Assembly: GCF_014646055.1 (NCBI RefSeq)
Contig: NZ_BMMS01000004.1
Span: 186,001 to 250,000 of the forward strand
Direction: 5' to 3'
DNA: 64,000 nt
From: Wenjunlia tyrosinilytica
GTDB lineage: Bacteria; Actinomycetota; Actinomycetes; Streptomycetales; Streptomycetaceae
Below the pieces are notes generated by a model, which had not been told where the DNA came from, ran no database searches, and saw only the letters and a list, made by a program, of their open reading frames with translations. How positions within the stretch are numbered: the stretch's first letter is position 1; each line of letters begins with the position of its first letter. The translations under genes and the position numbers were made by a program. Positions 1,380-49,800 of the stretch are shown here, piece by piece.

Positions 1380-2963
1380 CTACTCCCACTCGATGGTGCC
1401 CGGCGGCTTGCTGGTCACGTCGAGGACGACCCGGTTGACGTCCGGCACCTCGTTGGTGATGCGGGTGGAGATCTTCGCCAGCACGTCGTAGGGCAGGCGC
1501 GACCAGTCCGCCGTCATCGCGTCCTCGGAGGAGACCGGGCGCAGGACGACCGGGTGGCCGTAGGTGCGGCCGTCGCCCTGGACACCCACGCTGCGCACAT
1601 CCGCGAGCAGGACGACCGGGCACTGCCAGATCTCGCGGTCCAGGCCCGCGGTGGTCAGCTCCTCGCGGGCAATGGCGTCGGCCTCGCGGAGCAGGTCCAG
1701 GCGCTCCCCGGTGACCTCGCCGATGATGCGGATGCCGAGGCCGGGGCCGGGGAACGGCTGACGCCAGACGATCTCCGACGGCAGGCCGAGCTCCTCGCCG
1801 ACCTTGCGGACCTCGTCCTTGAACAGGCGCCGCAGGGGCTCCACGAGCTGGAACTGGAGGTCCTCGGGGAGGCCGCCCACATTGTGGTGGGACTTGATGT
1901 TGGCGGTGCCGGTGCCGCCGCCGGACTCGACGACGTCCGGGTAGAGCGTGCCCTGGACCAGGAACTCCACCTGCTCGCCGTGGGCACCCGCCTCGGCGAC
2001 GACCTCGGCGGCCGCCCGCTCGAAGACGCGGATGAACTCACGGCCGATGATCTTGCGCTTCTCCTCGGGGTCGGTGGCCCCGGCGAGCGCGTCGAGGAAG
2101 CGCTCCTGCGCGTCCACGACCTTCAGCTGGACGCCGGTCGCGGCCACGAAGTCCTTCTCGACCTGCTCGGCCTCGCCCTTGCGCAGCAGGCCGTGGTCGA
2201 CGAAGACACAGGTCAGCTGGTCGCCGACGGCCTTCTGCACGAGGGCGGCGGCGACGGCGGAGTCCACACCGCCGGAAAGGCCGCAGACGACCCTCTTGCT
2301 GCCGACCTGGGCGCGGATGGCCTCGACGGACTCCTCGACGACGTTGTGCGTGGTCCAGGAGGGACCGAGCCCGGCTCCGCGGTAGAGGAAGTGCTCCAGC
2401 AGCTGCTGGCCGTGCGTGGAGTGCAGCACCTCGGGGTGGTACTGGACGCCGTACAGCCTGGCCTCGTTGTTCTCGAACGCGGCGACGGGGGCGCGCTCGG
2501 TGGTCGCGGTGACCGTGAAGCCCTCGGGGGCGGCGGAGCAGGCGTCGCCGTGCGACATCCACACCGACTGCTCGTCCGGGGTGCCCTCGAAGAGCGTGGA
2601 GCCCTGCTTGGTCACGGTGAGCGGGGTGCGGCCGTACTCGCGCAGGCCGGTGTTGGCGACGGTGCCGCCCAGGGCGAGCGCCATGGCCTGGAAGCCGTAG
2701 CAGATGCCGAAGACCGGGATCCCGGCGTCGAAGATCTCCCGCCCGAGCTGCGGGGCGCCCTCGGCGTAGACGGAGGAGGGGCCGCCGGAGAGGATGATCG
2801 CCTTGGGCCGCTTGGCCAGGATCTCCTCGACGGGCATGGTGTGCGGGACGATCTCGCTGTACACCCGGGCTTCGCGTACGCGGCGGGCGATGAGCTGCGC
2901 GTACTGGGCCCCGAAGTCCACTACGAGGACCGTGTCGGGGGCTGACGGGGACGCTGATGCCAC
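1380..2963 (-). CDS. guaA: GMP synthase (glutamine-hydrolysing)
   Basis: 527-aa cytoplasmic enzyme that aminates XMP to GMP using glutamine and ATP, the last step of guanine nucleotide synthesis. The N-terminal class I glutaminase domain has its nucleophile Cys near residue 88 in GICYGFQ and the HPE triad motif in [10 protein letters not shown]. The ATP-pyrophosphatase P-loop [12 protein letters not shown] follows, then the C-terminal dimerisation domain ending KPPGTIEWE. The GTG at 2963 is chosen because GGAAGG sits just upstream and the protein then starts [17 protein letters not shown], as in relatives. It works with guaB (23.9-25.4 kb). Confidence 0.97.
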
Positions 2964-3100
2964 GGGCGGCCTTCCGGCGATGTTCAAGGGGGTCGCGGCC
3001 AATTCTACCGTCGGCCGGGTACCACCGGTGAACGTGCCAGACGTCTCAGCATCCGGGCGGTGAGTGGCCAGCGGCCGGAGCGGCGGTCCATACTGAGCGC

Positions 3101-3169
3101 ATGTTCCGCGACACATTCGACTTTACCTATGGCACCGGCTGGTCCGGCTGCCATGGCGAGCGTGCGTGA
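3101..3169 (+). CDS. Aromatic-rich leader peptide of an attenuator
   Basis: A 22-codon reading frame starts with ATG and contains Phe at 2, 6 and 8, Tyr at 10 and Trp at 14 ([11 protein letters not shown] then TGWSG), so five of 22 residues are the end products of chorismate. It includes the otherwise rare codons TTT and ACA. A CATACT -10-like hexamer at 3089-3094 would start transcription at or beside the ATG, so translation may be leaderless. The frame ends 23 nt before a strong terminator hairpin and 102 nt before the chorismate mutase gene. Function as a ribosome-stalling leader is inferred. Confidence 0.6.
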
Positions 3170-3192
3170 AGCGGAGATACGCAGACTTCCCA

Positions 3193-3228
3193 TCAGGCGC
3201 CCCGGGCCACTCGGCCCGGGGCGCCTGA
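3193..3228 (+). terminator. Attenuator terminator hairpin upstream of chorismate mutase
   Basis: A perfect 16-bp stem (3193-3208 with 3213-3228) has a 4-nt loop and is followed by CGTTT. It lies inside the leader of the chorismate mutase gene, where no upstream plus-strand gene other than the leader peptide needs terminating. An alternative antiterminator can form because TGGTCCGG at 3140-3147 pairs over 8 bp (one G-U) with CCGGGCCA at 3202-3209, consuming the terminator's left arm. The segment 3131-3152 can fold on itself as a pause hairpin. Confidence 0.65.
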
Positions 3229-3271
3229 CGTTTCCGGACCGGCCGGGACCACACATCCAGGAGACGGCAGC

Positions 3272-3556
3272 ATGAGCACCGGAACCAGCACCGAGGTCAT
3301 GGACGAGAAGGCCGCCGCCGCGATCATCGCCGGCGCGCGCGAGCGCATCGACGGGCTCGACGGGCAGATCCTCGAGTTGATCAAAGCACGGATCGGCGTC
3401 TCGGCCGAGGTGCAGCGGGCACGCTTGGCCTCGGGCGGGCGCAGGCTCTCGCTCAACCGCGAGATGGAGATCCTCCAGCGCTACAGCGACGCTCTCGGCA
3501 GGCCGGGCACCACGCTGGCGATGACACTGCTGGAGCTGTGCCGCGGAAAGGTATGA
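3272..3556 (+). CDS. Chorismate mutase (AroQ type)
   Basis: 94-aa all-helical mutase converting chorismate to prephenate, the branch point to Phe and Tyr. The single-domain AroQ pattern is visible in ERIDGLDGQILELIKARI, VQRARLASGGRRLSLNREME and the C-terminal LLELCRGKV. No prephenate dehydratase or dehydrogenase domain is fused. The ATG at 3272 follows AGGAG at 3259-3263. It is divergent from guaA and preceded by the leader peptide and hairpin described separately, so expression is probably tuned to aromatic amino-acid supply. Confidence 0.9.
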   Translation: MSTGTSTEVMDEKAAAAIIAGARERIDGLDGQILELIKARIGVSAEVQRARLASGGRRLSLNREMEILQRYSDALGRPGTTLAMTLLELCRGKV

Positions 3557-28751: not shown

Positions 28752-28789
28752 GAGGCCCGGCTCCCCTGCGGCGAGGGGAGCCGGGCCTC
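28752..28789. terminator. Bidirectional terminator
   Basis: A perfect 16-bp stem (28752-28767 with 28774-28789, loop GCGGCG) lies between the converging MOSC and groEL genes. Confidence 0.85.
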
Positions 28790-49762: not shown

Positions 49763-49800
49763 AACGCCTCGGAGGCACAGGTTCGTGCCTCCGAGGCGTT
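49763..49800 (-). terminator. Rho-independent terminator of rplM-rpsI
   Basis: A perfect 16-bp stem (49763-49778 with 49785-49800, loop AGGTTC) is followed on the minus strand by TTGTCTTTTTATC. This is the most canonical intrinsic terminator in the window. Confidence 0.95.

Follow-up and report, generated by a model that had tools for sequence, protein, structure and literature searches.

The stretch of 308 bases between the divergent guaA gene and the chorismate mutase (CM) gene raises the question of whether the expression of the latter is controlled ahead of its start codon and, if so, by which amino acid. This enzyme commits its substrate, chorismate, to the Phe and Tyr branch and not to the Trp branch. 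In the window, a term used here for the whole 64-kb stretch of DNA that was analysed (G+C content of 71.9%), the order of elements between the two genes is, from 5' to 3', a -10 box, a frame of 22 codons, two hairpins designated H1 and H2, and a stem of 16 bp (Table 1). A preliminary description of this DNA had assigned the gene after the leader to a chorismate mutase. This was confirmed by two profiles, as the protein starting at 3272 scored 107.6 bits with NCBIfam PRK07857 (cut-off 73) and 33.1 with Pfam CM_2 (cut-off 27). As detailed below, the intergenic stretch very probably acts as a ribosome-mediated transcription attenuator of the CM gene, and its signal is probably Phe, perhaps Tyr, and not Trp.

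Table 1. Features of the guaA-CM locus, in positions of the window
Feature	Position	Strand	Remarks
guaA (GMP synthase), divergent neighbour	1380..2963	-	GTG start assumed at 2963
-10 box CATACT, leader promoter (predicted)	3089..3094	+	ends 6 nt before the start codon
Leader frame, 22 codons, probably translated leaderless	3101..3169	+	sequence and relatives
Control codons TTT-ACC-TAT (Phe-Thr-Tyr)	3122..3130	+	TTT in 89/90, TAT in 90/90 loci
H1, hairpin over the Tyr codon	3127..3156	+	arms 3127-3134/3149-3156; inner 3135-3138/3144-3147
Antiterminator strand UGGUCCGG	3140..3147	+	pairs with 3202-3209
H2, stop-codon hairpin, antiterminator tip	3163..3183	+	arms 3163-3168/3178-3183
Terminator stem-loop, perfect 16 bp, loop of 4 nt	3193..3228	+	arms 3193-3208/3213-3228
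Terminator 5' arm segment CCGGGCCA	3202..3209	+	pairs with 3140-3147
AGGAG, ribosome binding site of CM	3259..3263	+	by eye
Chorismate mutase gene, monofunctional, 94 aa	3272..3556	+	profile matches

In the leader frame, codons 2, 6 and 8 encode Phe, codon 10 Tyr and codon 14 Trp. The three Phe, one Tyr and one Trp reported earlier, as well as the coordinates of the frame, are correct. In a protein search, a CM match was obtained in 325 of 394 genomes of the family to which the window belongs as part of a small genus, and which is the Streptomycetaceae as judged from named genomes with this element. At the 90 best-scoring of these family loci, a short frame with F-T-Y-G preceded the gene in every case and the exact core TTTACCTATGG was present in 89, a degree of conservation that excludes chance. 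The absence of the frame or of its Phe and Tyr codons from close relatives, which would have spoken against the preliminary description, was therefore not seen in any of these loci. The same core pattern was found once without mismatch in the genome of the window, at the site described here, together with 13 matches containing one mismatch.

The choice of codons is equally constant, since the conserved Phe is encoded by TTT and the conserved Tyr by TAT at all the best family loci but one, where the Phe codon differs. Both codons are rare in the window (TTT, 8 of 368 Phe codons; TAT, 17 of 277 Tyr codons), as counted in 44 long ORFs that were chosen for high GC3, a choice which favours TTC and TAC. 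A control that does not depend on this choice is provided by the Phe codon located two codons upstream of the conserved TTT, which is TTC in 80 of the 80 leaders where it is present. The wobble base of the Tyr codon is explained by its pairing in H1. For TTT, no pairing that could account for its retention was found, and this rare codon is nevertheless kept across families. In the 84 leaders that could be parsed, two Phe were counted in 63, one Tyr in 76, and Trp was missing from 71, in agreement with the earlier proposal that the response is not to Trp. About two Phe codons and one Tyr codon per leader are few for an attenuator, which counts against attenuation.

The distance between the end of the -10 box and the start codon is 6 or 7 nt in 82 of the 84 parsed relatives, and the frame opens with ATG in 82 of them and with GTG in the two others. 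The six other leaders of the 90 fell outside this spacing parse (L007, L010, L012, L019 and L023, box at the edge of the stretch; L090, no clear box). In other families, the leaders often display the same arrangement of -10 box and start codon, mostly with GTG. This spacing suggests that the leader is transcribed as a leaderless mRNA.

The perfect 16-bp stem described before the CM start is indeed present, with a loop of 4 nt. It lacks a long run of T, which is a point against attenuation. Four distinct perfect stems of at least 16 bp were found in the window, against none in five Markov-generated sequences of 64 kb. The three others, of 16-17 bp (1306-1343, 28752-28789 and 49763-49800), are probably ordinary terminators. 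Elsewhere in the window, the L17 ribosomal protein leader (RF03132; 58637-58693, minus strand, 69.9 bits) was the only Rfam match at its gathering score. In 39 family sequences, 98.4% of the cells at the positions of the terminator pairs are paired, and three pairs are changed on both sides. The region 3080-3285 folds better than 200 of 200 shuffled sequences (z = -4.9), the folding of H2 alone being slightly better than that of its shuffles (mean z = -0.8). The competing pairing of 8 bp also exists as described, one of its base pairs being G.U. Antiterminator and terminator are mutually exclusive, as segment 3202-3208 of the 5' arm is common to both.

In the mechanism that we propose, transcription would start at about the leader start codon, so that a ribosome would load at once on the leaderless mRNA. 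When Phe-tRNA, and perhaps Tyr-tRNA, is scarce, this ribosome would stall at TTT-ACC-TAT and cover the 5' arm of H1. The antiterminator strand would then be free to pair with its partner, with H2 as the apical stem, and the long antiterminator thus formed would hold the 5' arm of the terminator and permit read-through into CM. With charged tRNA in good supply, the ribosome would proceed to the stop codon in H2 and destroy the antiterminator, and the 16-bp terminator would form.

These states were modelled by folding transcripts that end just past the 5' arm of the terminator and in which a ribosome was masked, with assumed values for the footprint lengths. Six sequences were folded: three from the family of the window, two from family f37 and one from f59. 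With the ribosome masked at TTT, the long antiterminator, tipped by H2, was predicted in all six; a ribosome masked over the stop codon left the terminator as the sole predicted structure, again in all six, and the full-length unmasked RNA also gave the terminator in 6/6. In the shortened transcript without a ribosome, the antiterminator was the minimum-energy fold in five of the six sequences, so that a protective role of H1 is clear only in the window sequence. A stall at the Tyr codon left the antiterminator nearly intact in the window (-32.7 vs -33.6 kcal/mol), but weakened the modelled antiterminator in the five other sequences (for L003, -21.7 vs -34.1 kcal/mol). Phe is therefore probably the main signal and Tyr a possible one. 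The earlier claim that a stall at the Phe/Tyr codons frees the antiterminator strand holds at Phe in all six folds; at Tyr, the structure was weakened in five of them.

The pairing of these elements was then compared between relatives. In this comparison, which the preliminary description had proposed, both the terminator and the antiterminator stems covary, and the same was observed for H1 and H2, two hairpins that the description does not mention. For H1, 30 sequences from five families were considered: the position of the Tyr wobble base is U-A in 16 (the family sequences) and C-G in 14 (those of other families), and the innermost position is paired in 22 (A-U, U-A, G-C, C-G or G-U), the bases of the 8 others being unpaired there. 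For H2, a perfect 5-bp partner, G.U being allowed, of an arm that ends in the TG of the stop codon was present in 32 of 42 distinct sequences, compared with a mean of 6.5 and a maximum of 13 in 300 shuffles; two leaders with TAG as the stop codon were left out of this test. The arm GCTTG is matched by the stretch downstream of it in 23/25 cases and by the stretches of the other arms in 2/17, and the corresponding values for the arm GTCTG are 7/8 and 2/34. Five rare H2 arms among the 42 distinct sequences had no perfect partner.

The letters of the antiterminator vary from family to family, with UGGUCCGG:CCGGGCCA in the window, GAGUCCGG:CCGGGCUC in f37 and GGACUCCGG:CCGGAGUCC in f46, while the pairing is kept. 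Within the family of the window, matched strands gave -18.0 kcal/mol and permuted ones -17.2 kcal/mol (p = 0.0002, 35 combinations, kinship ignored). Between families, eight hand-picked representatives, two of which came from f37, gave -19.1 kcal/mol against -15.4 kcal/mol when permuted, and none of 20000 permutations was as good, kinship again being ignored. Among 18 sequences with a matched antiterminator, three were unconvincing (L293, L319 and L335) and one was weak (L318). A plain fold of the alignment misses H2 and the antiterminator, because the stop region is wrongly aligned by MAFFT and the register of the antiterminator shifts between two leader classes.

In order to follow the element among named genomes, a pattern scan blind to the neighbouring genes was used, which gave at least 120 matches. 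Among the 80 matches listed, all belong to Streptomyces, Streptacidiphilus or Actinacidiphila; CM lies downstream on the same strand in 76, and the remaining four end less than 250 bases from the motif. A divergent guaA lies upstream in 75 of the 80 listed, and the terminator there consequently ends no neighbouring upstream gene. In the five others, less than 175 bases were present upstream (L204, L230 and L240), guaA was located downstream on the same strand (L172) or gave no match (L217). A +1 frame that starts with the ATG of TATGGC appears open in some species and was examined as a coding candidate; it is broken by indels in relatives (L013, L017 and L033), so that the downstream conservation is that of an RNA and not of a protein.

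A covariance model, R1, was built from 39 of the 90 family leaders. In an order-wide sample, R1 was matched at an E value of 1e-6 or better in 179 of 182 family genomes, 180 of these 182 being from genus g9, and was missed in three (G115, G173 and G219); in two other families of the same order, one of 15 genomes was matched. In the genome of the window, the search for further copies gave weak matches only. Genus g14, which is absent from the order-wide sample, had no comparable R1 match in 61 genomes (best E value 1.2e-5), and two of its loci (L164 and L165) were read and judged to be other than the leader element. The protein search gave no CM match in 51 of these 61 genomes; with the CM match mostly gone and no strong leader match, both may have been lost or replaced together in this genus.

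R1 also pointed to two f37 genomes of another order in which a leader (SYFYYGTG or RFFYYGTG) precedes a CM match. Four weak matches outside the family (L150, L151, L162 and L163) looked like chance on reading. A CM match was present in 134 of 150 genomes of this other order, and 50 of the loci were read, namely the 30 best matches and 20 lower ones picked for family breadth. A leader with F-F/Y-Y-G or a close variant preceded CM at 43 of the 50, two f50 leaders being without the glycine, and none was found at the other seven (L305, L313, L314, L321, L323, L332 and L336). In two sets of control windows, 2 of 1798 and none of 120 passed the same motif test. Such leaders occur in ten families (f4, f37, f46, f48, f49, f50, f51, f52, f57 and f59), and at least one TTT is present in 42 of the 43 motifs. 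A stem followed the leader at the 25 loci listed by one scan and at 13 of 16 in another. No such stem was detected by the scan behind the leaders of L322, L324, L331 and L312, where the switch before CM may work in another way.

In family f17, R1 matches led to 11 loci with frames resembling MQRNFWRFYGYRP... (L148, L149, L152, L153 and L155-L161). In 7 of the 10 examined, a gene starting with MV-I/V-VM is located 98-132 bases after the leader, and the one downstream protein that was tested is a DAHP synthase (478.6 bits with NCBIfam PRK08673, cut-off 335). These loci present a leaderless-looking aromatic leader and a terminator before a DAHP synthase gene, and a second aromatic attenuator is probable there. 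It is possible, though we would not yet call it probable, that all these leaders represent one old actinomycete element. Its core F-F/Y-Y-G (F-T-Y-G in the family of the window), together with a matched antiterminator and the hairpin that covers the Tyr codon, would have been kept before CM in 11 families and would also control DAHP synthase in a further one. In much of the Actinomycetes, aromatic amino-acid synthesis would then be governed at two of its entry points by one homologous sensor.

Other explanations of the conserved stretch were considered. The leader peptide might itself be the active species, F-x-Y-G-x-G/R acting in the exit tunnel as an arrest sequence or in trans as an effector, with tRNA charging being secondary. 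The recurrence of F, Y and G across families, often with R, P and V as the next residues, is in favour of such a peptide. However, the RNA is kept in relatives where the stop codon is shifted by 3 or 9 bases or where the C-terminus is shifted, and the bases that encode G and the next residues sit in H1 and the antiterminator, which can account for their conservation; we consider an active peptide unlikely. An RNA that binds a protein or a ligand in the manner of a riboswitch, the frame being incidental, would fit the strong conservation observed outside the frame too. Yet no Rfam family was matched at its gathering score in this region, the best weak match reaching 20.4 bits where 112 are required. 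The start codon and the aromatic codons are moreover found again in distant families whose other leader residues differ, which makes an incidental frame very improbable.

With the same leader peptide as the sensor, the output could still differ, and control could be exerted through termination by Rho or through the accessibility of the CM start instead of by an intrinsic terminator. The four loci of the other order that have no stem in the scan are in favour of such an output, but the perfect stem in the window and the retention of its pairs across the 39 family sequences (98.4%) argue against it, and it appears unlikely. Attenuation by the intrinsic terminator, governed by the position of the ribosome on the leader, is thus the reading that we retain.

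Attenuators of this type are known for aromatic genes. In Corynebacterium glutamicum, the leader AroR precedes aroF (DAHP synthase), contains Phe-Tyr-Phe and acts by attenuation (PMC11802643, PMC4046766); a response to Phe, but none to Tyr, is reported for it. Likened by description, AroR and the window leader are both actinomycete aromatic leader peptides associated with attenuation, but AroR controls a DAHP synthase gene whereas the window leader precedes CM. The f17 leader resembles AroR by its target and the window leader by its sequence. In E. coli, the Phe leader peptide pheL precedes pheA, the gene of a CM-PDT (PMC11802643). Likened by description, pheL and the window leader are both Phe peptides before a CM activity; however, the E. 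coli enzyme is bifunctional and its host a gammaproteobacterium, while the CM of the window is monofunctional. The table of an RNA-seq study of Streptomyces lividans contains eight leader peptides (trpL, leuL, ilvL and others), mostly leaderless, with none for Phe/Tyr and none before CM (PMC8079986). Like the window leader, which is probably leaderless, these are short frames before amino-acid genes. The E. coli pheL peptide, for its part, has a far higher content of Phe, and a ribosome binding site precedes it. For the Phe and Tyr operons of Actinobacteria, a 2005 survey states that no conserved upstream RNA structures or RNA regulation were seen (PMC1262725). In the open-licence literature, with subscription papers mostly outside the search, no report of a CM attenuator in Actinobacteria was found, in line with the impression first given that none had been described for this gene. 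The type of switch is thus known, while its CM version seems undescribed and seems notable for its reach and for its probable leaderless start.

If the attenuator operates as proposed, a switch would have been overlooked in nearly all the sampled genomes of the main Streptomyces-containing genus. It would offer a handle on the supply of aromatic precursors in antibiotic producers, and a clean system in which attenuation from a leaderless leader could be followed in GC-rich bacteria.
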